DNA of 64,000 nucleotides from Argyresthia goedartella (Eukaryota > Arthropoda > Insecta > Lepidoptera > Argyresthiidae), in NCBI GenBank assembly GCA_949825045.1, contig OX463836.1:16468329-16532328 (forward strand). The letters run 5' to 3'. The notes beneath the pieces are model-generated. The model was not told the DNA's origin. It saw only the letters and a list, made by a program, of their open reading frames with translations, and ran no database searches. This document shows, one piece after another, positions 5,301 to 54,820 of the stretch. A program made the position numbers and the translations under genes. How positions within the stretch are numbered: position 1 is the first letter of the stretch; the number at the start of each line of letters is the position of its first letter.

Positions 5301-6833
5301 AATCAACTGCTGCACGTCGATCCAAGCACATCCAGGCCTCCGATCTGAATTGGCTTGGGGATCTTTTGGGATTCGAAGGACTCCGAAAGCTTTCTCTCGA
5401 ATTCCGGTTGACCTAACGCTGGAACAAACCATCAATGGAGACGCAGCACGCCGACTTACCGGAAAAACAAATCTGACAAATTCAATTGGTGCTAGACAGC
5501 GCTGGGCGAAAAATCACGGAGCTCGAACGCGAATAATATCGCACGTACTAACTCAAGCAGGACTGAACAAGAACCAAGATATCTCCGCTGAGCAAAATCC
5601 ACAGCGTATGGAGAAAGATAAGAAGCAACTTCAAGATTTTGTGGAAGGTATTCGTCAGACAATAAATCCATTTTCTTTCTCAATCGATGCTGATAAATTG
5701 TTTAACATCTCGACTGGACAAGCTGCAACTCCTGAAGTAGCGAATAGCTTGTTGAACGCAGTATCAAAGGGAACGGAGTTACGAGACAAATTTATTGCTG
5801 AATGCAATGACAACTCTGAGAGATTTTACGCAAGAATACCAAAAAATGCAGTACTGACTTTCGCGAGCATGAAGAAGAAGAAAATTCAGATCGGCCGAAA
5901 AGTACTTGAAGTTCGTCTCCAGAGTGACTTATTTGGCCGATTGTTGTCTTTATCTTTGGACGTGCAAATTGATCTTGAAAAGATGCTCCGTTTTCCAATA
6001 ACGCCAATTCCACTGTCTTTGTGTCACATAGATGGTTCTGTAAACAAAACAGTTAAATCGGTGCTGGTGAAAGTGTTGGAACACCAAAGTGAAGACATGG
6101 AACAACCGCCCTCTAACGTGGACATGGTAATCATCGATGGCTTCTTCTTGTTAAATACCATGACAGACATGCCTAGAACGTTTGGAGATGTATCAAAAAA
6201 ACTCTTGGCAGTTTAAGTACAAAAACAAAGGAAATGAAATTGCCATAGTTTTTGATCGGTACTTTACACCTTCCACTAAAGACTATGAGCATACTCTCCG
6301 CAACAGTATGAATGACGATAAGGACTATCACATCAGCGGTCCTCAGCAAATCCGCTTAGTAGACTTTGCGAAGGACTTGAAAAATATCAAGTTCAAAGAA
6401 GCTCTAGTCAAGTTTTTCATTGATCATTGGAATAGTCAAGAGATGGCCGTTATTATTCGCAACAAAACAATCTATTTGAACCACGACTTGTGCTACGTCT
6501 TCAAAGTCGTCGATCGAATAGTGCAGAGAACAATCGATGATAAGCTCTCATGCTCAAGTCACGAAGAAGCCGACACGAAGACAGTTTTCCTTGCCTGTCA
6601 ATCGCCACAAGGTTCTACAACAATCATTCGAGCATCAGGCACAGATATTCTGGTCATTATGTTGGCCAATGTGGAGCATTTGAACGAATCGGTTAGAGTG
6701 TGGATGGACCTCGGAGTCGGTAATGCACGTCGCAATATATATGTTTCGGCACTGTCAGTTTAGTTAGGCTCAATGCTTTCACGCGCACTTCCTGCTTTCC
6801 ACGCTTTAACAGGATGCGATATTAAGCCAGCAT
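2316..6833 (+). pseudogene. Academ-like transposase/XPG-nuclease gene, copy A, main part
   Basis: Frames in sequence: 2359-2636 (end of first zinc module, YHAQCYKWF), intron, 3145-3541 (second zinc module CFICERQ ... RYHECCKD), 3545-3994, 4090-4360, 4431-4718 (PMWVGYQSM), 4745-5217 (GAFHIEMAFFKALG), 5350-6211 (DLTLEQTINGDAA), 6200-6763 (IVFDRYFTPS, HEEADTK, TDILVIML), then HALTGCD at about 6799-6820. The last three motifs match the metal-binding signatures of XPG/FEN1-type nucleases. In this copy the DTD motif is GTD. Lesions include a stop at 3539-3541, frameshifts near 3985, 4700, 5340 and in an A7 tract near 6190. The frame is cut at 6833 by the viral insertion and resumes at 9951. Confidence 0.65.
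2637..3144 (+). other. Intron of the Academ-like gene (copy A)
   Basis: Donor GA|GTAAGA at 2637 and acceptor TTTTCAG at 3138-3144. Joining the exons keeps the frame across both zinc modules (..VDE then LEVANPWEE). The 508-bp intron is AT-rich and holds nothing else recognisable. The same intron is seen in copies B (about 41020-41529) and C (about 49689-50191). Confidence 0.65.
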
Positions 6834-6905
6834 TACAGTTTGGCACACAGACGTCTTGAAGTTTATTTAATTGTTTATTCTTAAACCCGGAACTCAACAA
6901 CTGCC

Positions 6906-7621
6906 AATGGGAGCTATTGTTCACCTCTTGATTTTAGCATGGGGCTTGGCTGGGACTCTGGCCTGTCCCATTGTGACCTTTTCAAAAGGAGTCATGAGTA
7001 GTGTTGGGTCCACTAGATCCTGCTCTTTTAGGTTGAATGGTGAGGAACCGAGGACATGGTTAAGCGGAGGTTCTATGGGTATGCTTTGATGAACTGCCTA
7101 GACTGCACACTTGGGATGGTGAGTGTCTTCAATGGCTGCGATGACTGCATTTGGTGCGTGCACAATGAGGGAGTTAGCCATTGTAAGTCTTGGGCTCTGC
7201 TAATACTCATTTCAGCTGCACTCACCCTGGTATCATGCATGATGGTCGTTATTATTCTAATGAAGTATGATTCTTGCAAGAGATTGGATAACTGGGCACA
7301 ATCCAAGGCGGTTGAACTGAGGGATGCGAGGGTCAAGAGAGCAAGGAGGACAGCTATGAGGCTAAAAAGATTCATAGATGAAGAATCTGTGTCAGCAAAC
7401 CCCTCTGTTCTGTCCGCATCCATGTCTGAAGAAGACAGGATTGACAGTGATTCTGATTCCCCAGTCCTTGCTGCCACCCCTCATATGGGGAACCCCCCTA
7501 AGCCAGCACACAGGCAGAAAGGATCTTTCAGCAAAGTTTCTGCAGCAGTGGGACTTGCTGCCTTAATGAGTGCTGGCTTGACTAAGGCTTGTGATGTCAC
7601 ATCCTACGTTTCTTCAAACAA
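6906..7621 (+). pseudogene. Bunyavirus glycoprotein precursor, N-terminal part (Gn-like stub, tail, second signal), copy A
   Basis: First ATG at 6906 opens a signal peptide (ILAWGLAG core). A short cysteine-containing ectodomain of about 85 residues, a transmembrane segment (about 7195-7255, LLILISAALTLV), a basic and acidic cytosolic tail and a second hydrophobic segment before ACDVTSY follow. That order matches the Gn membrane anchor, Gn tail and Gc signal of a phenuivirus-type precursor. A 13-bp deletion near 7043 relative to copy B breaks the frame. The ectodomain is far shorter than the roughly 400-500 residues usual for Gn. Frame is lost again at the insertion at 7622. Confidence 0.58.
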
Positions 7622-8493
7622 CAATGATATTGTTCCCAGGACGATATTGTGATTGAAGCGCTAATTCTCCGAATTTTCTGTATTCTATCTGCACGGCGAC
7701 CACGTGAGTTGGCTTTTTGAACAGATTACCTAACAAACAACCAACTTGCGTGAGATTTACGTAAAGATAGTCTACAACGTCGTTCCCACCAGGAAACTGG
7801 CTGACGTCGACGAGCAACGGCCTTTATTAAGGCCTGTCCGCGGTTTGCGAATCCGGACAATCATCCACACAGTCATTGTGTGTACGATCTTAGTTTTAGT
7901 TTTAGCTATCTTGATAATAGTTGTTAAGATTTTTAATTTTACTCGGCCATCACCGTAGTGTTTGTGCCCTAGTTAGTTTAGTTAAGTTCACGGTACAGTT
8001 GAGCATACTCCTGCCGATTTCTTTGTTCTATTTTAAGCATTAATAAAGGTTGAGGTATTCTCCCACTAACTGTATTTCTAAAGTGTGTACATTGTATTAT
8101 AAACCATTGCATGATGAGCAGCTCATCGTCAGATTTTGAAATCATGTCTGACGCCTCCGATACGTCTGCAGGCACGCAGCATACCATTCAGCTGCGCAGT
8201 CGACCCGTGCCCACCCACCAAGACGCATCGGCTAGCAATTCTGGCAACGACTCAACCTCGTCTGACGGCCCGAGCACCACCAGGCTCTACCCCGTTAACA
8301 TCGAGAGGCAAGTGCAGCAGTCGATGCCCGAGATCATTAGGCGTTTAGACGACCTGAATGTCAGTGCGGAACAATCCCATCAGATGATCGGGCAGGTGAT
8401 GCCTGCAATACAGCAAATGGCTGAACGTTCGGATATTCCGAACATGACACAGCAACAGTTCAACGACACGCTGCAATTTAAAAAAAAAAAAAA
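7622..8493 (+). mobile_element. 872-bp retroposed insert with A14 tail, origin unknown
   Basis: Comparison with copy B (45925-45935) shows extra sequence from 7622 to 8493, ending in fourteen A residues, with six target bases (TCAGAT) missing. The 3' A-run and the target deletion point to LINE-mediated retroposition with internal priming or a truncated tail. Inside are a frame ending at 7958 with one strong transmembrane stretch (IIHTVIVCTILVLVLAILII), an AATAAA with a possible LTR R/U5-like stretch at 8030-8100, and a serine-rich ORF at 8111. The mixture resembles pieces of an LTR retroelement, but no family is recognised. Confidence 0.6.
8111..8491 (+). CDS. Ser/Asp-rich ORF in the retroposed insert, possibly retroelement gag N-terminus
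   Basis: ATG at 8111 starts a frame of about 124 residues before the A-run, where it reads into lysines and then into the viral sequence by chance. Composition is rich in Ser, Asp, Thr and Gln, with a helical stretch (PEIIRRLDDLNVSAEQ). This looks like the disordered start and first helices of an LTR retrotransposon Gag, but there is no zinc knuckle or other diagnostic motif. Function not recognised. Confidence 0.3.
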
Positions 8494-9881
8494 CTACTCT
8501 GACGAGAGTTATTCCACTAAATACACTGGCCTATACCACATGAGTGCTAGCCAGACTTTGTGCTTAAGGTATGATAATGGAGAAACTGACAAGGTGATCA
8601 TACAGAAAACACAGACTGTTGATGTGTACTCCCCAATGTATAGGACATCCAATTACAGCTTAGAAGTCTTGAACGCACCTTGGAGATGCTATTCAGCGGG
8701 GGAATGTGGTTATGATATGTGTCTGGAGGGCTCTGTGTATAAGGATTGGGAAGGGGAACTTGCAGAACCAGGGTCAATCACTGGGTACGGCTGCAAACAA
8801 GGCAATGACTATTGTAAGTTTTGCTCATACTATGGTCAGTGCAAGTGGTATAAGTACACCCTCAAACCTCTTGGGTCACTGTTCACTGTTCACTGTTCAC
8901 AAAAAGGTGAAGAACGACTGGATGATAAAGGCAACTTATGTTAGCCATGGGGGCCTTATAACTAGCATGGTTTTTAGTTCAGGAATGATTTATACTGACC
9001 TGCCATCCGGAACCAGGGTTTCCTTGCTTGCCCCTTCAAGACCGACCTATTATTCAAATAAATACCTAGTGGAATCACCCGAAGGCCTCGTATGGTCTGT
9101 TCATGCTAATCCACTGGGAGATCTCTCTTCAAGCATGATTGGAGACTTGCAGATGGGGCTGCTTGATTCAGAACAAATCGCATTCCAGGTGAATGAGATA
9201 TCATGCTGGTCCAATAACTGCAAGGTGTCGTGTAAGGCCCCTGAATCAGGCTTGTCTAGAGGTTTGAAGCAGTATCGCAATTATTCAGTGGAGGTTGAAT
9301 CCATGGGGAGAGATAGGGTTGTCAAAAAACCAGAATACATGACTTTCGGAATGTTTGTCACCACCAAGAAGCAAGCCTCTATTGTGTCTATTACCGCACA
9401 ATGCTCATTTGAAGTGATCATGTCTTATGGGTGTCTAGCTTGCAGCAAGAAGACTTATGTGGTTATACAAGCAGTTGACATAAAGTCAATGGGCCTGGTT
9501 GAAGTGAGCAGCAATTGTTCAATAGATAGGAAGAGGCTAGCATGTCAAGAAAGTCCCCAGTTGATCTTGGTGGATTATCATGATTCCACATGTGCTTTAA
9601 ATATTGTTAGAACTAATCAGAGCCTGTATTTCAATCTGGACTATATATTTGAAGGAGCTGTACTTGGTGTCAGTGACGTTATATCTGTCAACAAATACAC
9701 AAGTAATTCAGACATGGCTCTTCAATTTATCACAAGTGACACTTTCATTAAGTCACTGGGTAATATGATGAGCACCACTTTCCTTCTTGGAATCAGTTTA
9801 CTTTCCATCAGGTCACTCCTCAAATTCCTTGCCATGAGACAAGGATTCAAGGAGGCCAGGGATGTAAAAGACATGAGTTAG
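8494..9881 (+). pseudogene. Bunyavirus Gc-like fusion glycoprotein, copy A, frameshifted
   Basis: Continues the precursor after the insert. Cysteine-rich ectodomain (pairs such as CKFCSYYGQC and CWSNNCKVSC), N-glycosylation sequons (NYS, NCS, NQS) and a C-terminal hydrophobic anchor (TTFLLGISLLSI) with a short basic tail; length of about 460 residues fits a class II Gc of the phenuivirus type. The role in the virus would be membrane fusion. A 7-bp tandem duplication (TGTTCAC) near 8889 shifts the frame, so the reading is 8494-8890 in one frame and 8900-9881 in another. The second frame is otherwise uninterrupted to the stop at 9879. Family assignment is by architecture, not by alignment. Confidence 0.58.
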
Positions 9882-9950
9882 TCTGTTCCAAGCTGGAGGT
9901 CTTTAGTCATAATTGTATATATCCATTAGGTTAAGATTAGGTTAAGCATT

Positions 9951-12081: not shown

Positions 12082-14919
12082 TTAGGATGTTTTCTGGAGC
12101 GTCAACAAATAGCCTTTAAGCATACGCTTAAAGGTGTATCTGCTAAGCGCCCCTTGGATAGGAGGAGGGATATCATTCCAGCACTTAGACGCCGCAAACT
12201 TGAAACTACCTCTGAAAGCAGCGGTTCGGTGCATAGGTATAATGGCCATTGCCTTGAACCTGCGCACACTTTTGGACCAAACCAGTTTATTAAAAAGGTA
12301 GGTGGGGGTTTTGTGTCTTACCACCCCGAACAGCAAAGTGGCCAAGTGCAGGCGCCGGCGTGCAGGCATGTTAAGCAAGTTAGCGGCGTTCAAGTAGGGA
12401 GTGATGTGGGACCGGGGAGGGACTCTGAAACAAAAACGAGCACATGCGTTCTGCACTCGTTGTATGAGCCTCTTGGAACGACCACTAATGCACCCATTAT
12501 ACACGACATCACAATAGTTTAATCTAGATAATATAAGTGATTCACATAGGTCAACACGCAAATCGACACTAAGGTAATCTCGTATATTATATAGAACTTT
12601 GAGGCGATAGAAGCAGTTACTCACAACATTTAGTATGTGGTTCTCAAAGCGCAAATTCCCGTCCATTAAAAGGCCGAGGTTGGTTGCTTCTACCACCCGT
12701 TCGATTGGTTCGCCCATGACGGCGACATTCCCGGAAGTCAGAGCTTCAAGGGTATTACGGATTTGATGTTTTGACCCAAAAACGACATATTTCGACTTGC
12801 CAGGATTAAGAACTAAACAGCTCTTGTCCGACCAAGAGGAAATACGTTCTAGGTCAGCATTTATCTTGTTTATGGCAGCAGATGTGTCTGACGGCACGCT
12901 AGAAAAGTAAAGTTGCACGTCGTCCGCGTACAGGTGATACTTGCAGCTCTCCATACTGTTAGTGATATCAGCGCTATACAGTATGAAGAGCAGAGGCCCG
13001 AGTATCGAACCCTGCGGTACTCCTCTTGTCACAGGACAAACAGAGGACCGCAGAGCACTACCATCCACCCTACGCAATGCAACTGCCTGCGCACGGCCAG
13101 ACAAATAGCTACTGAACCATTTTGTAGCAGTGACATCAAACCCGTAATAAGACATCTTGGATAATAGTAGGGGTATGCTAATACAGTCGAAGGCCCTGGA
13201 GAAATCTAAAAGCACTAAAAAAGTACTTTTACCAGCATCACGAGCTTGTAAGATGTTATCGACTACATCGAGCAGCGCAGTAGCTGTCGATCGACCTTTG
13301 CGAAAACCTGACTGCAGTTCAGGGAGTATGCTGTTTTTCTCCAGGTAATCGGACAGCTGTTCGCAAACTACCCGTTCTATTATCTTCGATGCACAAGGAA
13401 GAATACTTATAGGTCGCAGTTGAGACATTTCAGTGGGATTCGGTTTTTTTGGTAACGGGGTCACCTGAGCGATTTTCCAGTCAGCTGGGAAAGTCATTGT
13501 CAGAATGCTCATATTAATAATGTAAGTCAGTACGTCTGTAGTTCTCGGTAATGTCAGAAGTATCATGTCAATATCTATTGAGTCGAGTCCTTTTGCTGTG
13601 GTTTTTATTGACGTAATGAGTTTTGTGACGGCAGTAGCAGTAGTAGGAGAAAGCGTGAAAGTTTTGTCATTATGTCTATTAAATTCAAAAAAAGTTAAGT
13701 CAGATAAAGTAACTTCCTGTTTCCCAGGAATATTAAGGAAATGACGGTTTATCAAGTCAGGGTCATCAAATTGTGCCGGGAGGTCAGTCTGCGTCTGTGA
13801 ATCTGGAAGAACAGTGCGCTTTAAGGTTTTCCAGAGAGTCTTCGAGTCGGTAATGTCATTAATATGATGCGTGAAGAAGGCACGTTTCTCGTTATAAATG
13901 GCTTCTATCACAAGGTGCTTCAGGTCGAGGTAATACCGCTTGTGAACATCGCTTCCGGTTCGTTTGTAACGAGTGTGAGCCTCGTTTCTGAGCCGCATCA
14001 TGAGCCGAACGTTGCTCGTGAGCCATGGTTTAAGTACCTCCTTCACCACTATCATCTTCTCCGGCGCATGTCTGTCGAAGAGTCCTAGTAGCAGTAAGTT
14101 AAATAGTCTAACCATGTCATTTATGTCGTTAAGTAAATAAATTTGTTCCCAGTTTATGGCGTCAAGGTCATTGTTAAATATAGTTAGGTTAATATCTTTC
14201 AGTGGTCTATAAGTAATACGTCTAGGTGTCGGTTTCCGTTTTTTAATGTCAAACTCGGCTGTGATGAATGCATGCCTCCCTAAGTCCGGGATATGCTGCA
14301 CGTCCACAGACACAACACGAGCGTCGGAGCAAATAAGGTCTATAGTTGTCTGGCTGTGTTCCGTAAAGTGAGTCGGGTCGCTTACATGTTGTGTCAAGCC
14401 AATCGTTGTCAGAAATTGTGTCAAACATCTAAGTTTTCTGTCGTTCTTGTCCATGTAATTAATATTAAAGTCACCCAGTAAAATCAGTCGGTCGTATTTA
14501 ATAAAAGAAGTTATTGAGTCAGTAATGGCATCAAAAAAAGTGTCAACATCGAGCCGCGGTGGCCGATATGCGGTCCCAATGATTAAATGTTTGCTGTTAA
14601 TTATTGTTTTCAACCACATTTGTTCTACGAGCGCAGCGGGAGGATGTGTAAGTGTGCGCGCGTGGAGGCCCCGGCGCAGGAAGAAACCAACGCCCCCACC
14701 CCGTCCTCCACATATTTCGACCGGCCGGGGAACGTGCCGTAATCGGTAATTAGGCACGGCGGGAGCACGTCCATCCTCTCCAGCCCGAAGCCAAGACTCG
14801 TTTATGGCAATAATGTCTGCGTTCGTATCTGTTAAAGTCGCAATCAGCTCATCATGTCCCGTACCAAGGGAACCAGCATTAAATAATCCAACTTTTAAGT
14901 TATTAAACCGCGACATCAT
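12082..14919 (-). CDS. LINE ORF2: apurinic-type endonuclease and reverse transcriptase
   Basis: 945 residues from the ATG pair at 14919. N-terminal endonuclease of the APE type (LKVGLFNAGSL, NESWL, LLGDFNINY, and the late SDARVVSVDVQHIPDLGRHA region). Reverse transcriptase from about residue 440: PISILPCASKIIER, SGFRKGRSTATALLD, LLDFSRAFD, GVPQGSILGPLLF and the catalytic YADDVQLYF. A C-terminal tail with cysteines follows. It nicks target DNA and copies the element mRNA at the break. No stop or frameshift is visible over the full length, and the RT motif pattern is that of the CR1 group. Confidence 0.93.
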   Translation of the reverse strand: MMSRFNNLKVGLFNAGSLGTGHDELIATLTDTNADIIAINESWLRAGEDGRAPAVPNYRLRHVPRPVEICGGRGGGVGFFLRRGLHARTLTHPPAALVEQMWLKTIINSKHLIIGTAYRPPRLDVDTFFDAITDSITSFIKYDRLILLGDFNINYMDKNDRKLRCLTQFLTTIGLTQHVSDPTHFTEHSQTTIDLICSDARVVSVDVQHIPDLGRHAFITAEFDIKKRKPTPRRITYRPLKDINLTIFNNDLDAINWEQIYLLNDINDMVRLFNLLLLGLFDRHAPEKMIVVKEVLKPWLTSNVRLMMRLRNEAHTRYKRTGSDVHKRYYLDLKHLVIEAIYNEKRAFFTHHINDITDSKTLWKTLKRTVLPDSQTQTDLPAQFDDPDLINRHFLNIPGKQEVTLSDLTFFEFNRHNDKTFTLSPTTATAVTKLITSIKTTAKGLDSIDIDMILLTLPRTTDVLTYIINMSILTMTFPADWKIAQVTPLPKKPNPTEMSQLRPISILPCASKIIERVVCEQLSDYLEKNSILPELQSGFRKGRSTATALLDVVDNILQARDAGKSTFLVLLDFSRAFDCISIPLLLSKMSYYGFDVTATKWFSSYLSGRAQAVALRRVDGSALRSSVCPVTRGVPQGSILGPLLFILYSADITNSMESCKYHLYADDVQLYFSSVPSDTSAAINKINADLERISSWSDKSCLVLNPGKSKYVVFGSKHQIRNTLEALTSGNVAVMGEPIERVVEATNLGLLMDGNLRFENHILNVVSNCFYRLKVLYNIRDYLSVDLRVDLCESLILSRLNYCDVVYNGCISGRSKRLIQRVQNACARFCFRVPPRSHITPYLNAANLLNMPARRRLHLATLLFGVVRHKTPTYLFNKLVWSKSVRRFKAMAIIPMHRTAAFRGSFKFAASKCWNDIPPPIQGALSRYTFKRMLKGYLLTLQKTS

Positions 14920-15329
14920 GAAAACGAGCAAAAAAGTTAAAAGAACAATAGCAAATGAATGAATGCATACAGGTAAGTGACTCAGTCCACGAAGATAAAA
15001 GTAAATAGCAAGTGCAGCACAAAGTGATAAATAAAGAGTGATAGTGTAGACCTATAACATATATATACATACATAAGTTATATACGGATAAATTTATATA
15101 AAATGATTGCTTCCAGGCTGAATCACGCGACGGTACGAGGCATATTTGTCGGTCCACTCCCGCGACAAGACATAGCAATGACGAAATAAGCATATAGGCC
15201 ACAACAAAACGGTAAAAACGGTATTTTTTTACAATTATACAATTTATCTGAAACGAGTTACAAACAAACAACAACAACGAAACATTTAATTGCAGGACTT
15301 TACTACAAAACAAACAAAAACAATAACAA

Positions 15330-16451
15330 TTAAGGAATTCTTTGGACTTCGGCTGGCAAAAAAATGTGCAGATCGGATAACCGACGCACGTGATGAGCCG
15401 GCTGACCCTCAGACCTGCGGGCGAGGATTCTGCCGTCGCGGGTCCACACGAAGCGCCAGGCGGCGGTGCGCGCGGCCTCGCGCGCCCGCTGGAACAGCTG
15501 TCGGTTGGCGCTAGTCAGCCGCTCGTTCACATAGAACCGCTGCGGCGCGCCGGCCAGGCCCATCCCTTCGGTGGTGGCGCCGCGGCGTGTGCGCGCGCCC
15601 TGCAGCAGCTCGTCCTTGACGGCGCGGCGCGCCAGGCGCAGCACGATGGGCCGCGGCCGGGCCGCCTCGCGCGTCCGCCCGGCACGATAAACCGACACCA
15701 CGTCACGCACGTCCAGCTCCACGCCCAGTTTTGCGCAGATCCGCGTGGCTAGGCCGGCGGCACTCTCACCGGGGTCCTCCGGGACGTTCGTCACCTGGAT
15801 GTCGTTCGACAAAAGCTCTTGGTCGCGGTCGTTCAGCTCCATTTGAAGATTCGCAACGGCTTCTTCGAGCACTCGGGTAGCAGCTGACGCCGCCCCATCT
15901 ATGACCTGCCTTTCAATAGCGTCGACGCGGCCCTCCAAACGATCCATCCTTTCGCCAAACACGGACAGGTGCGCTCTCAAGTCCTGAAACTCGTCGCGAA
16001 ACTCCTTCAGCTCCTGTCGGATGGTGTGGAATTCCACTCCGATGAACCGTTTCAGCTCAATAAGCGCACTGGCCATGTCCTCCCCGTCGAAGGATGCAGG
16101 AGAGCAGGGCATGGCCGTGTCCGCGCTTAGCGAGTCCGAAGAGGAGGCAAGCAGTGCGGTGGCGGTCTGAGCAGAGGCGGGCCGAGCGGCAGCAGCGGGC
16201 CGGTCGGTGGCGAACGGAGCGACGGCTGGCGGAGCCGAAGAGGAGGATTGACCCAGCAGGCCTTTAACGGGCGTGTCAGCGCGGTTGTCTCTCGGTTTTA
16301 ATCTCTGGCAATCAGGGCAGTCCCAGTCCTTGGGGATAACTGCTCCGGCTGAGACACCCACACAAGCACCGTGGTACTGGCCGCCGCATTTTGGACACGA
16401 TACGATGCCAGTGCGCCCAATAAACTTAGCACAAGCCCCACACTTTTTCAT
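15330..16451 (-). CDS. LINE ORF1: PHD-finger, coiled coil and RRM-like RNA-binding protein
   Basis: 373 residues from ATG at 16451. N-terminal PHD-like zinc finger (CGACAKFIG..CPKCGGQYHGACV..CPDCQ), a Ser/Ala-rich linker, a coiled coil at roughly residues 140-215 (LKEFRDEFQDLRAHL..ERMDRLEGR) and an L1-ORF1p-like RNA-binding part (LSNDIQVTNVPEDPGE..). The protein should bind the element RNA and assemble into particles for retroposition. GC-rich and uninterrupted. It ends 410 bp before the ORF2 ATG. Confidence 0.88.
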   Translation of the reverse strand: MKKCGACAKFIGRTGIVSCPKCGGQYHGACVGVSAGAVIPKDWDCPDCQRLKPRDNRADTPVKGLLGQSSSSAPPAVAPFATDRPAAAARPASAQTATALLASSSDSLSADTAMPCSPASFDGEDMASALIELKRFIGVEFHTIRQELKEFRDEFQDLRAHLSVFGERMDRLEGRVDAIERQVIDGAASAATRVLEEAVANLQMELNDRDQELLSNDIQVTNVPEDPGESAAGLATRICAKLGVELDVRDVVSVYRAGRTREAARPRPIVLRLARRAVKDELLQGARTRRGATTEGMGLAGAPQRFYVNERLTSANRQLFQRAREAARTAAWRFVWTRDGRILARRSEGQPAHHVRRLSDLHIFLPAEVQRIP

Positions 16452-16694
16452 TGTTTTGTGATGTTTTTTTTTTTTAAGACTGTGGGTAGATGTCACAGCA
16501 CACGACAGTATGTAACTATTATGGTCACTTTTTGGCCTAATCACTGAACCTTTAATTACGCAAATAATAATTGTCAATATTTACACTAATGCGCATTAAA
16601 TAAATGTATTTGCATAGCAAAAACAACACTAGTTTTATTTTATATGGACGGCGGCGATAGTAGGCGCATACGTCGTATGGCGTCCGTGAGTCAC

Positions 16695-26765: not shown

Positions 26766-27350
26766 TGTGGCTACTTACACACATTCTGCTTACCACAACA
26801 ACCTTACAGAACCTTACCGTACCAGCAAGCAACACCAGCAAGCAACACCTTACCATTACCAGCAAGCAACACCTTACCATTACCAATAACATCAGTAAAC
26901 AACAGCAAGTATTTCGCAATGTTTTATTGAACACATCGGTTGCAAGAAACAAAGATGGAGTTCTGAAAAGAACTGTTCGCAATGTTATAAGAAACACATC
27001 GGTTGCAAGTTGGAGTTCTGAAAAGAACAGCTGAACAGCGAGCTGAAGCAAGCGGCTGGCGGCAGCAGCGACGACCACGCGGCACGGCGATAGCGGAGAT
27101 GCAGCTCGCTCGACGTCCGGGCGCAGAAAAGGAACGAGGCCCCGCGCCACGAGTATTTAACTTGCGACCGCGCGTCAGAGGCGCGGGGGGCGCCCCCCCC
27201 GCGGATCGCGTGATGTGGTTCCCCGCGCGCCCCGCGGACTCCCCGATCAGTACCTCTTTCTGTATATAAGTAGGCGTATTTTCTGTAAATAAATCATCTT
27301 ATTCTGTCCACTCCGAGTAATGTCTTTACTTACTACACCATATCTCCAAA
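26766..27350 (+). repeat. 5' LTR of Gypsy element
   Basis: Starts TGTGGCTAC and ends CTCCAAA. Contains TATATAAG at about 27264 (TATA box), an AATAAA at about 27288 and a GC-rich stretch (27160-27235). The TATA-to-AATAAA distance is short, as usual for insect LTRs. Confidence 0.95.
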
Positions 27351-28833: not shown

Positions 28834-29799
28834 ATGTCAAGCGCCGACGAAAAATCTGCCCCTGCACCTGCAACTCAGCAAGATGCCTCAGCTCCATCTC
28901 GCCTCGGAAATCATGAAGACGTCTCTGCAATATCCCTCAGCATGCGGATTCCACCCGTCTGGCATCAACGACTTCGCCTCTGGTTCGCTCAGTTTGAAGC
29001 CATCATGAAGCCGCTCAGACAAGGCGACCAAGCAATGTTCGACATCGTCATCCGGCAACTCGACAAGCAAGACCTGGACATCGTGGACCACCTCATCCTC
29101 AAGCCACCGGAAACCAACAAGTACGAAGCGCTCAAGACGAAACTCCTAGCATTCTATGAAGACTCAGACGAACGCCGCCTCGACCGCCTGCTCGCAGAAA
29201 CTGAACTCGGCGACTTGAAGCCGTCACAGCTCCTTCGCCGAATGCAGCACCTCGCCGGCGACGGGATGACCGACCACACCGTGCGCAACCTGTGGATGCG
29301 ACACCTGCCACCGTCCGTTCGAGCAGTCCTCGCCGTCACCTCTACAATCGCTACAACGGCGGACATCGACGAGCTCGCTAAAATGGCCGACAAGATTATG
29401 GAGAGCACACAAATGTCGCACAACTCCGCCGCCGTCGGGACGTCAATCGCTGCCGTCGACGCACACAAATCAGCACCAGCAAGTTCAAACCAAGACATCA
29501 ACGAGAAACTTGAATTTCTAATGCGCGAAATCGCCGAACTGAAGACTCAAAAATGGCAGAACTCGCAACAACACTACAACAACTGGTCACGTGATCGCGA
29601 GCCGCAACACACACGACAGCGCTCGCGTTCCCGCCCCCGCATACCCCGCCCGCAACCCGCCGCCGCCGCCTCCGACGACTCACGCGCGCCCGTAACCGGA
29701 AGTTTAAACAGCGGAATATGTTACTACCACCGTCGCTTCGGGAGCAAAGCAATTAAATGCACGCGCCCCTGCAATTTCGACCAGAAGCCGGAAAACTAG
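28834..29799 (+). CDS. gag: Gypsy Gag
   Basis: 321 residues, ATG at 28834. Capsid-type region with [20 protein letters not shown] and an [11 protein letters not shown] segment; C-terminal zinc motif of the CHCC kind typical of CsRn1-like elements ([18 protein letters not shown]). A basic, Arg/Gln/Ser-rich region ([15 protein letters not shown]) precedes the zinc motif. Forms the particle and binds element RNA. Pol overlaps its end in the -1 frame, implying ribosomal frameshifting. Confidence 0.92.
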
Positions 29800-32700
29800 A
29801 GCCAGCGTTGTGTGAGGCGGCAAGCAACGCTATGAAGTCCCACCGCCTGTTCATTCAAGACAAGAAGTCCAAATTAACATTCCTCATCGACACAGGCGCC
29901 AACATCTCTGTTATACCTAAACCAAAAAACGCAAAATGCTCGCCTACGAAGTTCTCGCTCTACGCCGCCAACAACACGCTGATACCTACCTACGGGGAAA
30001 AAACCTTGGAACTAGACTTCGGGCTGAGAAGACCATTCATGTGGAAATTCATTATCGCGGCAGTCGGTAAGCCAATCATAGGCGCCGACTTGCTCGAACA
30101 TCATCAACTCATCATCGACATAGCAGGAAGAAGCATCATTGACAAGAAAACGAAATTATCCGTCAAAGTTCCGATCTGCAACTCTACTGAACCCACCATT
30201 CGCACTATCGACGTCGAACAGAGATATCACGACATCTTGGCCGAATTCCCGAACGTCACTCGACTCTCATCAATGAAGGAATGTCCCAAGCACAACGTGG
30301 AGCATTACATCGAAACCACTGGCCCGCCCATACACTCCAAGGCGCGGCCCATCCCTCCGCATCGATACGCAGCTGTGAAAAAAGAATTTGAAGACATGAT
30401 GGCGCAAGGCCTGTGCCGCCCCAGCAAAAGTCCATGGTCAAGTCCCCTACACGTCGTACCTAAAAAGAACGGTGACCTTCGAGTGTGTGGCGACTACAGA
30501 CGACTGAACGCAGTTACGAAGCCCGACCGATACCCAATACCGCGACTCCGAGACTTCACCTACCAGCTGAGCGGGAAAAATATCTTCTCCGTCATCGATT
30601 TGAACCGGGCATATGCACAACTACCTATATATGATGCCGATATCGACAAGACCGCCATCACTACACCGTACGGCTTGTTCGAATTCCCGCGAATGTGCCC
30701 GGGTCTCAAGAACGCCGGTCAAACGTTCCAGCGATTCATACATCAAGTACTACAAGGACTAGACTACGTATTTCCATTCATCGACGATGTGATCCTAGCG
30801 TCTGCAAGCGAAGATCAGCACGTTCAAGACCTGCGAACTGTTTTACAAAGACTCGACGAATACGGAATAACACTTAACCCCTCAAAGTGCGACCTCGGCA
30901 AAGAAGAAGTCAAATTTCTCGGCTACACTGTATCGAAGCACGGTATTAAACCGCCTGAAGATAAGATCGCCGCAATCAATAACTTCCCCAAGCCTGAGAC
31001 CATCGAAGAGCTCAGGCGTTTTCTCGGCATGATCAACTTTTACCGTGAAAGCATTCCTCACGCCGCAACACTACAAGCTCCATTGAACGCATACCTACAT
31101 AACTCAAAGAAGAAAGACAAGTCGAAAATTCAATGGAACGACGAAGCTACGGCCGCATTCGAAGCATGCAAAGTTAGCATACAAAACGCCGCTTTGCTTG
31201 CTCACCCCATCCCCTCCGCTCCCCTCGCCCTCATGTGCGACGCATCTGACAAGAGTGCCGGCGCTGTCCTTCAACAAAGAGTACGAGGAGTCTGGCAACC
31301 TCTCGGCTACTTCTCGAAGAAATTCAGTGAGACTCAGCAGCGGTACAGCACCTTCGACCGTGAACTATTATCGATCTACATGGCAGTAAAACACTTCAGA
31401 AAAATGTTCGAGGGCAACGAGCTAACAATCTACACAGATCACAAGCCTCTCACATTCGCAATCAACAAACCGCCGTCCGACAACGACACGCCGCGACGAG
31501 TGCGACAACTGCTATTCATCAGCGAATTCACTACAAATCTACAACACATCAGTGGAAAAGAGAACATCGTCGCAGACACGCTCTCAAGAATCGAAGCTGT
31601 ATCCTGCCCATCACCGATCGATTATCAAGAACTTTCCTGCGCGCAAGAGCGAGATAGCTACATACCTAAACTGCTTCAACAACCTAGCTTAAAAATCAAG
31701 AAAGTAGTGATTCCGCTCTCAACACACAGCCTATACTGCGAAGTGTCTACTGAAAACGCCCGCCCATACCTACCTGAAGACTACCGACGCACCGCCTTCA
31801 ACACCGTGCACAATGTCAGCCATCCAGGGATACGAACGACGCGCAGGCTAATGCAGCAGCGATATTTCTGGCCGTCCATGAATAAGGATGTCGGAAATTG
31901 GGCAAAGGCATGCGAGTCGTGTCAAAGGGCGAAGGTTCAACGACACACTTCAAGTGGCATCGCTACACTACCTACGAGCGAGCGCTTCGAACACATTCAC
32001 GTAGACATCGTCGGACCGCTACCTACTTCATCGAGCGGACATAAATACCTACTCACTGCAATCGACAGATGTACCCGTTGGCCGGAAGCATTCCCGATGC
32101 AAGACATCACTGCAGAAATCGTTGCGAAGACCCTGTACGAAGGCTGGTTCTCTCGGCACGGCTGTCCTGCTACCCTGACCACGGACCAAGGCCGGCAGTA
32201 CGAGAGCTACCTATTCTCCGCACTCACCAAACTACTTGGGATAGAGAGAATACGGACCACCGCCTACCACCCGCAGAGCAATGGCATGGTCGAGCGCTGG
32301 CATCGCTCACTAAAAGCAGCGCTAATGGCAAGACTGGAGAACACCAACAAGTGGATGGAAGACCTACCGACCGTGCTACTAGGACTCCGAGCCGCGACGC
32401 GCGCCGATACCTACACTAGCCCGGCCGAACTAACCTACGGTCGCGCACTCCGCCTGCCGGGACAATTCTTCACTTCTGCACCGAGGCAAACGGCGATGAA
32501 CTACGACTTCGTGGAGCAGCTGTCCGACGCGATCGAGCGTTGTCGACCTGTCACGAAACCTCACCACGCCAAGCCACACATCTTCATTCATCAAGATCTT
32601 CACACATGCAGTCACGTGTTTCTACGAGTCGACGCGGTACGCAAGCCTCTACAGCCACCTTACACAGGACCCTATCGTGTCGTCGAACGAAACCACAAGA

Positions 32701-32918
32701 TATTCAAGATACAATTACCTGGCCGTCAAGCAAATGTCTCAATCGACCGACTGAAGCCCGCATACGTAATTAGCAGCGAAAATGAAGCCGCAACTACAAT
32801 GCCAGTCCAGCAAATACCTACGAGTCGGCAATCTCCAAGCGCCGCGACATCGGCACCGCCCGCAATCAAACAAACACGCACGGGCAGAATAATCAAGCCT
32901 CCTGTACTCTTCGCTTGA
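29757..32918 (+). CDS. pol: Gypsy Pol: protease, reverse transcriptase, RNase H, integrase
   Basis: 1053 residues, uninterrupted. Protease [15 protein letters not shown] with [28 protein letters not shown] and catalytic FIDDVILAS; RNase H with [22 protein letters not shown] and TDHKPL; integrase zinc domain ([11 protein letters not shown].., CESCQRAK), then D (HVDIVGPLP), D ([10 protein letters not shown]) and E ([12 protein letters not shown]). A GPYRVV-type C-terminal domain is present. All catalytic residues seen are intact, so the enzyme could be functional. Confidence 0.96.
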
Positions 32919-32929
32919 GGGGGGAATAC

Positions 32930-33515
32930 TGTGGCTACTTACACACATTCTGCTTACCACAACAACCTTACAGAACCTTACCGTACCAGCAAGCAACACC
33001 AGCAAGCAACACCTTACCATTACCAGCAAGCAACACCTTACCATTACCAATAACATCAGTAAACAACAGCAAGTATTTCGCAATGTTTTATTGAACACAT
33101 CGGTTGCAAGAAACAAAGATGGAGTTCTGAAAAGAACTGTTCGCAATGTTATAAGAAACACATCGGTTGCAAGTTGGAGTTCTGAAAAGAACAGCTGAAC
33201 AGCGAGCTGAAGCAAGCGGCTGGCGGCAGCAGCGACGACCACGCGGCACGGCGATAGCGGAGATGCAGCTCGCTCGACGTCCGGGCGCAGAAAAGGAACG
33301 AGGCCCCGCGCCACGAGTATTTAACTTGCGACCGCGCGTCAGCGGCGCGGGGGGCGCCCCCCCCCGCGGATCGCGTGATGTGGTTCCCCGCGCGCCCCGC
33401 GGACTCCCCGATCAGTACCTCTTTCTGTATATAAGTAGGCGTATTTTCTGTAAATAAATCATCTTATTCTGTCCACTCCGAGTAATGTCTTTACTTACTA
33501 CACCATATCTCCAAA
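32930..33515 (+). repeat. 3' LTR of Gypsy element
   Basis: 586 bp, essentially identical to the 5' LTR apart from a C-run length and single bases in the GC-rich part (33345-33365). Followed by the target repeat ATGT at 33516-33519. Confidence 0.95.
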
Positions 33516-39416: not shown

Positions 39417-40016
39417 ATGTCTTCCTATAAGCTGATAAAACAGCCTTTAACATTGTATAACTATGCATTTAATAAAATAAGTAATTCATTGAGCGAACAT
39501 ATAATACATTTTATAGAAAAGGACTACGATTCTACAATAGTAGCAAAAGTAAGTGGTGTGTAATTGAGTTTGCAGTTTTAGCTGACTGACACCCGTCGAT
39601 TTCATTGTAACTGATGATCTGATGAATATTAAATAAGTTAAGATGACGATTTTATTCTACCTGCATATACTTATGAAACTACTGATTGAATACAATCACT
39701 AATAAAGTGATGATATAATTATTGTAAATATGCTTTAACCTAAGTGTATAATTATTTCAGATGAAGATAATAAAAACTAAAATTTTCGAGCTTCCCATAC
39801 CAACACAAATAGCCCAGCAATTATTTCTAAGCTCAATACCAAACATTGAAATTAACCTTGCAGATGAAAACATTAGCTTAAAAACGGGGCTGTGATAATT
39901 GTAGGACTGAGTATTGGCCGACTTGGGAGGATGAGCAATGGAGTTGGGATAATCTTCGTAATTTGTATTGCCCCGATTGTTCGAATGAGTGTTATAATGA
40001 CGAGTCATACTTATAG
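39417..40016 (+). pseudogene. Two-exon accessory gene of ISL2EU-like element, C2C2 zinc ribbon, frameshifted
   Basis: Exon 1 is 39417-39548 (44 codons from ATG, MSSYKLIKQPLTLYNYAF), donor GTAAGT at 39549. Intron of 212 bp; acceptor TTTCAG ends at 39760. Exon 2 continues MKIIKTKIFELPIP.., then a run of four G near 39889 shifts the frame by one. In the shifted frame CDNCRTEYWPTW..LYCPDCSNEC follows with stop TAG at 40014-40016. Two CxxC pairs suggest a small zinc ribbon. Its end is identical to the first 41 bases of the window. Function unknown. Confidence 0.45.
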
Positions 40017-40698
40017 GCATATATTTATGAATTTGGTTTGAGGTGCAATACACACAAACAGAATAAAAAGATTTTGGTTACGTATGATAAAAGATATTAA
40101 TTGTTTGTTTATTTTTAGTTAGAATTTCATGGGTGTCATAAAAATGTCATAACAATAATTTTTTTACTGTACTTTTTCAAGCAACTAGTAAACACACTAC
40201 AATATACTTTTACTCAATCTACGTAGAAAATATATATAATGTAATAAATATTTATGGTACATACAATATGAACAATGACAGATTTTTTGCGTAGATGCAC
40301 CCAACCCAATGAAACAATTTTTGGTGTGTTGAAAGATATTTGTTTGTTTGTTTTGAATTATAATTTTCATGGAACCTGTCAAAAATAAATGTCAAAAAAT
40401 AAATGTTTTTTTTTCTGGAATTTTTCAACCAACTCTTTTGTAAATAATACATTAGAGTATAATTTAACTCAATGTACATAGATACTAGTTGGTTTCAATA
40501 TTCTGGCTACAATAGCTACGGAGCTTTGAAATAACCTCTGCAGATTTGACGTTTTTGTCAAAGTCTCGGAAAGTATTCATAGTAGCCGGCTGTAAATTGG
40601 AGCGCAGCCTAGTTAAATGGTAACGAAAAAAAGTGTAAAAAAAAAAACAGAAAATATCACAGTGGCCACTGCTCCTTCCTTAGCCTGCCAGACCCTTT
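40017..40698 (+). repeat. Right end and long inverted repeat of ISL2EU-like element, copy B
   Basis: Non-coding. From about 40225 to 40698 the sequence is the reverse complement of 34266-34750, with small indels. It represents the uninterrupted version of the site that the Tc1-like element entered in copy A. Confidence 0.75.
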
Positions 40699-43600
40699 GC
40701 GACGTTTACTACAGAAACTTTGAAAAAATGTAAGACAGTGTTTGAATATCGCCAAAACAAACCGAGAGTCAGTACGTGCTTTTGCACGTACGACGTATGA
40801 CAATCTGAAACTTCCCGATGATGCATCGGGAGATGCAGCATACCATGCGCAATGCTACAAGTGGTTTACAGCGATCAAAATCCCGGCAGATTTTTCTAAC
40901 AACACTGAACAGCTTTGCGCTGTAGAGTCAAACATTGATCCGGAAATTCCTGCCTCGGTGGATTGCGCAGCTGATATTCCTACAACTTCAACCGACTCTG
41001 CCGACACATCTGTTGACGAGTAAGAACTTTTGTTGTTAACATTTTGTCGCAATAATTATACCATTTTTTCTTATATGAACTCTATAGTTTTGATTTAAAA
41101 TTATACCTGGGTTCTCTCCTGATACGATCAATAGACATATACAGCCTTTTTACGAAGCAGCTGCTACCTGCCCCAGTCCTTATTCTCACACGGTCATCCC
41201 TTCAACCCATACACTAACCGTTCAAAATATATATTTCGTGTCGAATTTTTTTTCTTAACGTTTCAAAGCTGTTTTTTTTTTATTGAATTTACCGGAGATA
41301 GCAAAAATATAAAATAACTATTTTGGAAAACCACTTCTTTTTTTTTTCCTATTGTAATATATTATTATTTAATTATTAATTAATTAACAACAATAATAAA
41401 AATAATAAATAAATTTATTAATTTATTGAAGAAATTGTCTATATTCGTTCGGAAATATATATTTTTTCAAACTGATGTAAAAAATCGGCCAATTAAATTG
41501 ATTGTTGTATGGGAAAACATTATTTTCAGGCTTGAGGTGGCCAACCCATGGGAGGAAGGTTGTCGTGACGAAGTTCAACAAAACGAACCGAACAATGAGG
41601 ATCTGCGACTGGCACAATGTTTTATATGCGAAAGACAACGGAAACGTTTTCATGGACGCGAGGTTCCGCTGGCCGTAAGCAAATCTGGCACTGTCGAACA
41701 AATAAAAAGCGCGGCCACGGAATTTTTTGACCTAAAAATGTTGGAAAAAATCAGTTCCTTTGCTAACGAATCCGATATTCGTTATCATAAGTGCTGTAAA
41801 GATCAGTACTTGCGCGACATTTCAAGGAACGAGGACCGAGCATTTTTCATTAAAAGGAAGGCATCAAACACTGCCTACACGATTTTGTGCCAAACGTTGG
41901 AGCAACGCATAATAAAGAAAAAAATAATGCATGTTTTTTAACACTGTGAAGAAAGAGTATGACGAGTTACTAATAGAAGAAACGAAATCGCTATATAACA
42001 TTCTATCAAGACCACAGCACTCTCCGATCGTCACTTGGAAAACAAACTGATGGAAACTTTCCATCGCAGGATTAAGATTATTTATGCCGAAAAGAGAAAA
42101 ATTCTTGCTCCGTTTGACGTCGACATTGTAACCTACCAGGATTTATTCAAAAGTATTTCGATGAAAGAAAATATTCGGTCCATTGCAAAAGACATAAGAG
42201 AGGAAATTGTGAACTACACCACGACAAAATTACCCCATGACCTTTCTGCAGAAGATTTACTGAAAGGAGAATGCAATTCCGTACCAGAGCTCACGATTTT
42301 TTCTCTCGGACAAGATCTGATGTACGCTACGTACAGAGTTTTAACATCGAAACACGTTTCATGGGGTTGGCAGTGAAGAGCATGTGCAACAGCAAAAAAA
42401 ATTGTCGAGTTACTATCCAAGTTTGGGCATTGCTGCTCTTATACGACACTCGAAATATTGGAGATTGAATTGACATATTCAACGATAAATTCGAAATACG
42501 CATGTCCGGAGGATATTGCACGCCGCCCTGATTTGAATACTGGAGTCGCGTTTGATAACTTTGATCGCTTTGTTGACACACTCGATGGTAGACACACTGC
42601 ACGACACGGTGGGGATCATTTTTCAAGATATCATTCCTAATGAAGAGGCAATCATATCACCAGCTGTTTTCCGTGAAGACAATTCCGCTGAGTTCTGTAC
42701 GCAGGAGCAAAAGACGCAGGACGTTCGAAGAGGTCATATTTGAGTTACGACCATTTACAAAAAAAATGAAGATTTCTTGATGTTTCACAACTTAATTACC
42801 ACCTGATAGTTTGACGAAATCTATCCAACTGGATACTGCGTGGATGCTGTTACACAAGCTCAACGTTGACGATGTTCCCATGTGGGTCGGCTATCAAAGC
42901 ATGATTACGATTGACATTTCACCAGTCCAGAAAGTCTCGTATCTCCCACTGACTGATTTCCAGAGTTTTCAATCTCCAACTAATCATTCGACAGTATTGA
43001 AAACTCTGGAAGTCAGTCAAGAAATTGCAGCTGAATGCGAAGCCAAAATCAAATCACGTATGATTTGGCCATCGCTCGAACAAGTTATTGTATCCTAGCT
43101 CAAGAATCCCCCCCAATTCAACAACATTTTTATTCATTTGGGGGCTTTCCATATTGAGATGGCTTTCTTCAAAGCGCTTGGGGTCTTCATTGAAGAGAGT
43201 GGATTGACTAATATAATGGTTGAGACTAATCTGATTGCGAGTGGATCTGTCGGTGGGTTCATTTCCGGGAAAAATTACAAAAGGTGTAAACGATTACATC
43301 CAATTATGGATTTGGCGTTGGAGCAATTACATTTCGAGTCATTCCTTGATCGCAAACATTCGACGATTTCAAAATCGGTGATAGATTATCTCGCTGAGTT
43401 CATGCAACACAAAGGTGTCTCTCCGCAACTCGACCACGCCGAAACTCAACAGTTGATCCAATGGTACGAAGAATATACAGCAGAATCTCTTCAAGGTAAA
43501 CACGGAAAAACGTGCCAATTTTACGCGATGTCAGCGATTTTGTCAATCTCTATCACTTCTTCGTTCGCAGTGTTAGAACAGGAGATTTTAATTTGATCAT

Positions 43601-45130
43601 TTACGCTCTTGGAAGAATCGTAATTTTATTCTTTCATTATAATCAACAAAACTATAGTCGATGGCTGAGATACTACATAAATCAACTGCTGCACGTCGAT
43701 CCAAGCACATCCAGGCCTCCGATCTGAATTGGCTCGGGGATCTTTTGGGATTCGAAGGACTCCGAAAGCTTTCTCTCGAATTCCGGTTGACCTAACGCTG
43801 GAACAAACCATCAATGGAGACGCAGCACGCTGACTTACCGGAAAAACAAATCTGACAAATTCAATTGGTGCTAGACAGCGCTGGGCGAAAAATCACGGAG
43901 CACGAACGCGAATAATATCGCACGTACTAACTCAAGCAGGACTGAACAAGAACCAAGATATCTCCGCTGAGCAAAATCCACAGCGTATGGAGAAAGATAA
44001 GAAGCAACTTCAAGGTTTTGTGGAAGGTATTCGTCAGACAATAAATCCATTTTCTTTCTCAATCGATGCTGATAAATTGTTTAACATCTCGACTGGACAA
44101 GCTGCAACTCCTGAAGTAGCGAATAGCTTGTTGAACGCAGTATCAAAGGGAACGGAGTTACGAGACAAATTTATTGCTGAATGCAATGACAACTCTGAGA
44201 GATTTTACGCAAGAATACCAAAAAATGCAGTTCTGACTTTCGCGAGCATGAAGAAGAAGAAAATTCAGATCGGCCGAAAAGTACTTGAAGTTCGTCTCCA
44301 GCGTGACTTATTTGGCCGATTGTTGTCTTTATCTTTGGACGTGCAAATTGATCTTGAAAAGATGCTCCGTTTTCCAATAACGCCAATTCCACTGTCTTTG
44401 TGTCACATAGATGGTTCTGTAAACAAAACAGTTAAATCGGTGCTGGTGAAAGTGTTGGAACACCAAAGTGAAGACATGGAACAACCGCCCTCTAACGTGG
44501 ACATGGTAATCATCGATGGCTTCTTCTTGTTAAATACCATGACAGACATGCCTAGAACGTTTGGAGATGTATCAAAAAAACTCTTGGCAGTTTAAGTACA
44601 AAAACAAAGGAAATGAAATTGCCATAGTTTTTGATCGGTACTTTACACCTTCCACTAAAGACTATGAGCATACTCTCCGCAACAGTATGAATGACGATAA
44701 GGACTATCACATCAGCGGTCCTCAGCAAATCCGCTTAGTAGACTTTGCGAAGGACTTGAAAAATATCAAGTTCAAAGAAGCTCTAGTCAAGTTTTTCATT
44801 GATCATTGGAATAGTCAAGAGATGGCCGTTATTATTCGCAACAAAACAATCTATTTGAACCACGACTTGTGCTACGTCTTCAAAGTCGTCGATCGAATAG
44901 TGCAGAGAACAATCGATGATAAGCTCTCATGCTCAAGTCACGAAGAAGCCGACACGAAGACAGTTTTCCTTGCCTGTTAACGAATCGGTTAGAGTGTGGA
45001 TGGATCTCGGAGTCGGTAATGCACGTCGCAATATAGATGTTTCGGCACTGTCAGTTTAGTTAGGCTCAATGCTTTCACGCGCACTGCCTGCTTTCCACGC
45101 TTTAACAGGATGCGATATTAAGCCAGCATT
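40699..45130 (+). pseudogene. Academ-like gene, copy B
   Basis: Same organisation as copy A: zinc module, intron of about 510 bp (GTAAGA at about 41021 to CAG before 41530), 41530-41940, 42035-42376, 42811-43098, 43130-43590, 43640-44590 and 44561-44980. It shares the frameshifts near the AVKSM region and in the A7 tract near 44572. A deletion of about 105 bp at 44978 removes the DTDILVIML metal-binding motif, so this copy could not encode a working nuclease. HALTGCD (about 45095-45115) is followed by the viral insert at 45131. Confidence 0.62.
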
Positions 45131-46185
45131 ACAGTTTGGCACACAGACGTCTTGAAGTTTGTTTAATTGTTTATTCTTAAACCCGGAACTCAACAACTGC
45201 CAATGGGAGCTATTGTTCACCTCTTGATTTTAGCATGGGGCTTGGCTGGGACTCTGGCCTGTCCCATTGTGACCTTTTCAAAAGGAGTCATGAGTAGTGT
45301 TGGGTCCACTAGATCCTGCTCTTTTAGGTTGAATGGTGAGGAGAACACCATTGGAACCGAGGACATGGTTAAGCGGAGGTTCTATGGGTATGCTTTGATG
45401 AACTGCCCAGACTGCACACTTGGGATGGTGAGTGTCTTCAATGGCTGCGATGACTACATTTGGTGCGTGCACAATGAGGGAGTTAGCCATTGTAAGTCTT
45501 GGGCTCTGCTAATACTCATTTCAGCTGCACTCACCCTGGTATCAAGCATGATGGTCGTTATTATTCTAATGAAGTATGATTCTTGCAAGAGATTGGATAA
45601 CTGGGCACAATCCAAGGCGGTTGAACTGAGGGATGCGAGGGTCAAGAGAGCAAGGAGGACAGCTATGAGGCTAAAAAGATTCATAGATGAAGAATCTGTG
45701 TCAGCAAACCCCTCTGTTCTGTCCGCATCCATGTCTGAAGAAGACAGGATTGACAGTGATTCTGATTCCCCAGTCCTTGCTGCCACCCCTCATATGGGGA
45801 ACCCCCCTAAGCCAGCACACAGGCAGAAAGGATCTTTCAGCAATGTTTCTGCAGCAGTGGGACTTGCTGCCTTAATGAGTGCTGGCTTGACTAAGGCTTG
45901 TGATGTCACATCCTACGTTTCTTCAAACAATCAGATCTACTCTGACGAGAGTTATTCCACTAAATACACTGGCCTATACCACATGAGTGCTAGCCAGACT
46001 TTGTGCTTAAGGTATGATAATGGAGAAACTGACAAGGTGATCATACAGAAAACACAGACTGTTGATGTGTACTCCCCAATGTATAGGACATCCAATTACA
46101 GCTTAGAAGTCTTGAACGCACCTTGGAGATGCTATTCAGCGGGGGAATGTGGTTATGATATGTGTCTGGAGGGCTCTGTGTATAA
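45131..46185 (+). pseudogene. Bunyavirus glycoprotein precursor, copy B, N-terminal part (frame open)
   Basis: Begins with the same ten-base leader and ACACAGACG as copy A. ATG at 45203; signal peptide, short ectodomain, transmembrane anchor (about 45490-45570), tail, second signal (VGLAALMSAGL) and the start of Gc (ACDVTSY..). The frame is open for 327 residues to 46185, where a Harbinger derivative enters; beyond that it is read-through to 46270. Unlike copy A there is no 13-bp deletion and no retroposed insert. Envelope role in the source virus; no sign of a host function. Confidence 0.58.
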
Positions 46186-46441
46186 GTGCTCATTCGCACT
46201 GGCGGTTACCCGCCGCGCGGTTAACCGCGCGGCCTGCCGCATTCTTCATTTAATATGGAACCGCCTATGATCGTACGCACTTGACCGCCTCTAAATTTCA
46301 ACCGCCGCGGTTGAAAGGATGGCCGCGGCCCGCCTCGCGGTCAGCCGCCGTCTTGTCTATACGCACTGGCGGTTCATTCAGTTTGCGGCGAGACGCCGAT
46401 GAGTTTGCACGTGCGCAAGAGGACAGTTTCCGAGTGCAGCT

Positions 46442-47113: not shown

Positions 47114-47307
47114 GTTCAACCAACTTACCGTAGCGAACATTCAACATGGAATCAAGAATCTGTATCCTCTCCTGAATCAACACATTCACAAAATACACAG
47201 ATATCTACTAGTTTAGAATATGTCGAACTTTTTAATGATTCTCAATAATTTAATACGTATTTTTATTATTGACCTACATTATAATTAAAATGCACAAGAA
47301 GTTTTAT

Positions 47308-54353: not shown

Positions 54354-54359
54354 ATATTG

Positions 54360-54814: not shown

Positions 54815-54820
54815 ATATTG

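Follow-up and report, generated by a model that had tools for sequence, protein, structure and literature searches.

The window analysed here, a 64,000-nucleotide (nt) stretch of the moth Argyresthia goedartella (GenBank assembly GCA_949825045.1, contig OX463836.1, positions 16,468,329 to 16,532,328 of the forward strand), contains four copies (A, B, C, and D) of a host repeat. In copies A and B only, the repeat is interrupted by an insert carrying a gene that resembles the glycoprotein gene of a bunyavirus. The insert of copy A occupies 6835-9944, between two AGCATT motifs, and copy B spans about 39976-49061, with its insert starting at 45131. The features are listed below in window coordinates, with + for the forward strand; TM is a transmembrane segment and ORF an open reading frame.

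6829-6834, no strand: left 6-bp target duplication AGCATT of copy A, single in copies C and D
6835-6844, +: ten bases ACAGTTTGGC, candidate snatched leader, absent from the empty sites in C and D
6845-6906, +: presumed viral 5' end (ACACAGACG...) and 62-nt 5' untranslated region
6907-7621, +: first part of the gene (putative signal peptide, Gn, TM, tail, internal signal, and start of Gc), frame-broken in A
7622-8493, +: nested insertion of 872 nt with a gag-like ORF (8111-8476) and a run of 14 A (A14, 8480-8493), absent from B
8494-9881, +: putative Gc part to the stop codon TAG at 9879-9881, with one frame-breaking length change in A
9882-9944, +: 3' untranslated tail of 63 nt that lacks a poly(A) as well as a complement of the viral 5' end
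9925-9946, +: exact 11-nt tandem of ATTAGGTTAAG (two units), its final AG being the start of the right AGCATT
9945-9950, no strand: right AGCATT of copy A
45131-46186, +: first part of the copy B insert, same leader, frame open from the ATG at 45203
46187-47785, +: transposable element nested in copy B, with a MADF/BESS ORF (46442-47113)
47786-47973, +: continuation of the copy B insert, its 3' part lost beyond about 47973
54317-54322, no strand: empty site of copy C, single AGCATT, from the window repeat comparison
57670-57675, no strand: empty site of copy D, single AGCATT, from the same comparison

Insertion site and order of events

Copies C and D read through the site uninterrupted with one AGCATT each, and therefore the target duplication is exactly 6 bp long and the ends of the insert are exact, with no joining of flanks needed. 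The duplication named in the original prediction is confirmed by these two sites. A viral 3' end without poly(A) is confirmed as well, the sole poly(A) being the one that closes the later nested insertion. As in other endogenous viral elements, the gene lies flush in host DNA and sites without it exist (copies C and D). The open frame 54261-54698 of copy C, which by eye reads ...TGCDIKPALYKRGKKRP, includes the site. Just to the right of it, copy C holds about 455 bp (54360-54814) that are absent from A and D.

Differences between copies were counted with gapped columns excluded. In the left flank next to the site, they amounted to 12/1597 for A-B, 22/1678 for A-C, and 16/1595 for B-C, and the 24 sites with one odd copy were divided into 12 for C, 8 for A, and 4 for B. 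Farther left, the counts were 34/2662 (A-B), 71/2650 (A-C), and 67/2644 (B-C), and in the right flank 37/1660 (A-C), 38/1666 (A-D), and 0/1661 (C-D). Copies A and B are the closest relatives, with a divergence of 0.7-1.3%. Their viral parts differ at 5/787, 0/250, and 4/184 positions (9/1221 in total); the ten bases and the start of the insert are identical, and one base differs in the first 120 nt. The two inserts are the same event and not independent ones, so that only one event is on show.

Later damage is private to each copy. In copy A, two length changes break the frame and an insertion is nested at 7622-8493, a retro-insertion without target duplication that replaces 6 nt present in B; its gag-like ORF had no Pfam match, and its frame runs by chance into the viral Gc frame (ORF 8111-8944). 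Copy B carries the MADF/BESS element, whose ends are inverted and of the GCTCATTCGCACTGGCGG type, and has lost the 3' part of the insert past about 47973. The simplest order suggested by the sequences is a single young insertion into the repeat ancestral to A and B, which was duplicated afterwards. A separate near-identity joins C 54815-57386 and D 57707-60289 (99.1% overall), which is either a very recent duplication or an effect of the assembly.

Glycoprotein gene and virus family

The insert consists of ACAGTTTGGC, then ACACAGACG, 62 nt to the ATG, a frame of about 704 amino acids (aa), and the 63-nt tail. Copy B is open from the ATG at 45203 to 46186 (328 aa, no stop), and the figure of about 704 aa is the sum of that frame and the remaining 1,135 nt of A minus one 7-nt expansion, counted without making a joined sequence. 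The precursor has a hydrophobic N-terminus (residues 1-26), a TM (99-123), a charged tail, and a weaker hydrophobic stretch (215-232) followed by a cysteine. Farther along come an ectodomain that contains cysteines and, at the C-terminus, a hydrophobic segment taken as a TM. These segments may be read as signal, Gn, TM, tail, internal signal, Gc, and TM, which is the layout of bunyavirus precursors. The layout points to a bunyavirus; sequence similarity by itself argues for this weakly. The evidence is good that a bunyavirus-like glycoprotein gene was inserted here as a single RNA copy, which brought a 6-bp duplication and no poly(A).

The family is probably Phasmaviridae rather than Phenuiviridae. 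The precursor of Diaphorina citri bunyavirus 2 (Orthophasmavirus) is described as 709 aa long, with a signal at 1-17 and TMs at 96-118 and 227-249 (PMC12303969), and the gene in the insert is like it in precursor length (709 versus about 704 aa), signal peptide, and spacing of the inner hydrophobic segments. This orthophasmavirus-type layout (about 700 aa, a signal, a TM near 100, and a second segment near 230) was found against one described virus, and the likeness is one of description and not of sequence; the available portion of the text of PMC12303969 gives no terminal letters. AGUAGUG-type ends have been reported for the phasmavirus genera Feravirus and Jonvirus and are unlike the end seen here; no termini of Orthophasmavirus segments were found in the literature looked at.

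A phenuivirus medium (M) segment messenger RNA (mRNA), as had been proposed, is unlikely, and the family assignment of the original prediction is probably wrong. Its ACACA start was in favor of that family, as was a weak Phlebovirus_G2 match that runs in profile order (residues 18-127 on 35-150 of 324). However, the frame of about 704 aa is well short of the 912-922 aa of oriental wenrivirus precursors (PMC8652140) and of the 1074 aa of the 3,222-bp frame of Mukawa virus (PMC6001614); the M segment of Gouleako virus is given as 3.2 kb (PMC10496375). A phenuivirus would require a large in-frame loss of Gn common to A and B, and such a deletion, considered under the assumption of Phenuiviridae, was dropped given the 709-aa orthophasmavirus precursor. 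The end ACACAAAG, stated in section 8 of PMC10496375 to be invariable for phenuivirus large (L) segments, is not matched, the end here being ACACAGAC. In a Pfam scan of seven pieces (three viral, one nested, and three host), Phlebovirus_G2 reached 14.7 bits against a cut-off of 22.9 bits, and Phlebovirus_G1 gave no match in this or in a second Pfam scan. A leishbuvirus origin is a possibility; leishbuvirus M segments are given as 1.1-2.9 kb (PMC10496375).

The gene might also be the envelope gene of a long terminal repeat (LTR) retroelement that had captured a bunyavirus-type glycoprotein, and such cases exist (hookworm Atlas virus, PMC9094657). This origin is highly improbable and was set aside: aside from the nested insertion that came later, the sequence between the duplications showed no LTR pair, integrase, or polymerase, and both ends are flush with host sequence.

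Template RNA and candidate leader

The first 15 viral bases were compared with the 15-base windows that start at 9795-9930, and none of these was complementary at 10 or more positions. Because the tail holds no complement of the viral 5' end, the insert is not a complete antigenome, and a full antigenome was ruled out as the template. An 11/15 complement of the leader plus five viral bases was found at 9882, away from the end, and was taken as chance. A viral poly(A) would probably be visible, since the nested insertion in the same copy keeps its A14. The lack of both poly(A) and a 3' complement is what a bunyavirus mRNA, unlike a full antigenome, would show, and as in a cap-snatched mRNA the 3' end stops before the end of the segment. 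Bunyavirus mRNAs are described as capped and usually non-polyadenylated (PMC9836281), and phlebovirus mRNAs likewise as capped and mostly non-polyadenylated (PMC5533932). An 11-nt tandem as good as the one at the 3' junction arose in 2/50,000 simulations (4e-5).

At the 5' end, ten bases stand ahead of ACACAGACG in A and B, as had been noted, and their non-viral nature, which was also claimed, was not established. Elsewhere in the window, ACAGTTTGGC occurs exactly only in copy B (45131-45140), and the sequence at 62531 differs from it by one base. When 200,000 sequences were simulated with a first-order Markov model of 6835-7634, ACACA after 7-18 bases appeared in 1.4% (P ~0.014) and ACACA after 7-18 bases together with GAC within 0-3 nt in 0.09% (P ~0.0009), the motifs having been chosen after the sequence was seen. 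The mRNA leaders of orthotospoviruses and emaraviruses are given as 12-18 nt long and those of tenuiviruses as heterogeneous (PMC8148189), rice stripe virus is able to cleave after base 11 (PMC5735111), and phenui- and arenaviruses are described as adding dinucleotides by realignment (PMC9836281). A snatched leader is a plausible reading of the ten bases. Among the papers listed for cap-snatching together with endogenous elements, most of them unopened, none reported a snatched leader in an endogenous element by its title or opening.

The explanation that we prefer, with a probability of about 0.45, is a bunyavirus mRNA with a snatched leader that was copied at a target-primed site and duplicated later. 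In this account, an arthropod bunyavirus, most likely a phasmavirus-like one, would have supplied a positive-sense RNA of its glycoprotein segment, and reverse transcription and insertion at a 6-bp staggered cut (AGCATT) would have placed the copy in one of the host repeats. The template would probably have been a capped, non-polyadenylated viral mRNA made up of host-derived ACAGTTTGGC, viral ACACAGACG, the full frame, and the 63-nt tail. If this RNA ended in ...ATTAGGTTAAG-3', the nicked target strand, its CT end base-paired to that AG, may have served as the primer, and a single slip in copying would account for the tandem of 11 nt. Duplication of the repeat, insert included, would later have produced A and B, each then damaged separately. 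The 6-bp duplication, the full-length plus-sense copy, and the repeat in the 3' tail fit an insertion of non-polyadenylated RNA by the target-primed route of a long interspersed nuclear element (LINE); among the features of LINE-mediated insertions, the duplication is present, poly(A) is absent, and a tandem of 11 nt stands at the junction. Alternatively, a free complementary DNA may have been joined at a staggered break. In the original prediction, a viral mRNA had been reverse transcribed with its leader; the reverse-transcribed viral RNA is upheld, and a snatched leader on it is plausible.

Two other accounts of the ten bases would do without a leader. They could be filler added at integration, by template switching or end-joining at the upstream junction, in which case the RNA may have been either an mRNA or an antigenome truncated at its 3' end but extending to the viral terminus. 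Extra bases are known at the upstream junctions of LINE insertions, and with a single event at hand variation of the leader cannot show. Ten bases is long for such filler, however; the change to viral-looking sequence falls exactly at an AC-repeat end; and no template was found in the window, since the 16 nt of duplication plus leader had no match outside A and B at up to three mismatches (three places had four). A leader copied from nearby DNA was rejected on that same result, and filler in general appears rather unlikely. Slightly less likely still, the ten bases could be viral, the true segment end being ACAGTTTGGC... or lying farther upstream. In support of this, the M end of the virus is not known, and ACACAGAC differs from ACACAAAG, the sole ACACA-type end found in papers. 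A terminal two- or three-base repeat permits prime-and-realign in bunyaviruses (PMC9836281), and against a viral origin ACAGTT has no such repeat, whereas ACACA has one.

Several results weigh against a snatched bunyavirus leader, or against the phasmavirus-like virus from which the RNA would have come. The Phlebovirus_G2 match, the sole viral one, lies on the first Gc piece (8492-8893; E=0.015, below the cut-off) and is by itself at chance level because unrelated matches of equal size came out of the same scan (DUF1968, 0.014, on the second Gc piece; UTP15_C, 0.018, on a host piece). A second Pfam scan of four pieces (three from B and one repeated from A) at E up to 10 gave no viral family, and one of the copy B pieces without a match overlaps the Phlebovirus_G2 region. 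Scans of viral contigs gave no match, and no database homologue emerged from searches at the Pfam, PDB, and contig levels; by sequence, PDB returned nothing in one search and two unrelated entries (E 0.27) in another, and two structure models were too poor for a search by fold (mean predicted local distance difference test scores of 33.7 and 35.7). The stretch at 215-232 is moderate in hydrophobicity (mean 1.42 versus the cut of 1.6 used). Diaphorina citri bunyavirus 2 has 846 nt before the frame of its M segment versus 62 here, according to its description. ACACA starts are known from phenuiviruses, as ACACAAAG and not as ACACAGAC, which counts against the Phasmaviridae call. No known segment end was matched to ACACAGACG, and a literature search on ACACAGAC and bunyaviruses gave one paper, which was unrelated. 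The ten bases are shorter than the 12-18 nt of tospo- and emaraviruses and stand without an identified donor mRNA.

Related elements and surrounding repeats

In mammals, complete viral genes typically have target duplications and poly(A), and a 2010 survey found neither of them in any insect element, even where boundaries are clear (Katzourakis and Gifford 2010, PMC2987831). The insert described here is like the LINE-mediated mammalian insertions of viral mRNA in its full gene copy and target duplication and differs from them in the lack of poly(A). In Bactrocera oleae, three Phasmaviridae glycoprotein non-retroviral endogenous viral elements are reported on one contig (PMC10689555). They share with the insert a glycoprotein gene of a negative-strand insect virus and paralogous copies close together; unlike them, the insert has both ends, an exact duplication, and empty paralogous sites in view, together with a possible mRNA leader. 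Such a young element shows directly which viral RNA served as template and by what route it was copied. It is a well-dissected endogenous viral element and a good, though unproven, case for a fossil snatched leader. More tentatively, it may preserve a complete cap-snatched bunyavirus mRNA, with leader, transcription start, whole frame, and true 3' end, adjoining an empty site. Fossils of that kind would document which leaders past viruses used and where their mRNAs ended, and would show that in an arthropod the target-primed route can insert a viral mRNA without poly(A). If the leader is snatched, genomes would carry a searchable record of bunyavirus transcription.

The insert had been placed in a DNA transposon; it does lie in a host repeat, and the identity of that repeat as a transposon was not established, its DDE_1 matches (20.7 and 21.3 bits) being just under the cut-off of 22 bits and its left end lying outside the window. 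A contig scan with one host-repeat frame gave a single 35% match, over residues 42-92, in a metagenome-assembled genome. The homology of A and B extends to base 1 of the window, leaving out a Tc1/mariner-like insertion (245-1815) with transposase domains on 802-1560, and therefore segmental duplication accounts for the copying as well as transposition does. Scans with Rfam and for tRNA genes and a plasmid search with 6838-7645 each gave 0 matches. Elements of BEL/Pao, gypsy, and PHD-bearing LINE type are present in the window, a set that suggests an arthropod host. Within the span of copy A, a LINE on the minus strand (12082-16577) has one frame for a PHD finger and a Baculo_FP domain and another, of 949 aa, for endonuclease and reverse transcriptase. 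An LTR-element pol frame at 29757-32918 (1053 aa) encodes reverse transcriptase, RNase H, and integrase, and a 586-bp direct repeat (26766-27350 and 32930-33515, 99.7%) is probably the LTR pair of this element.

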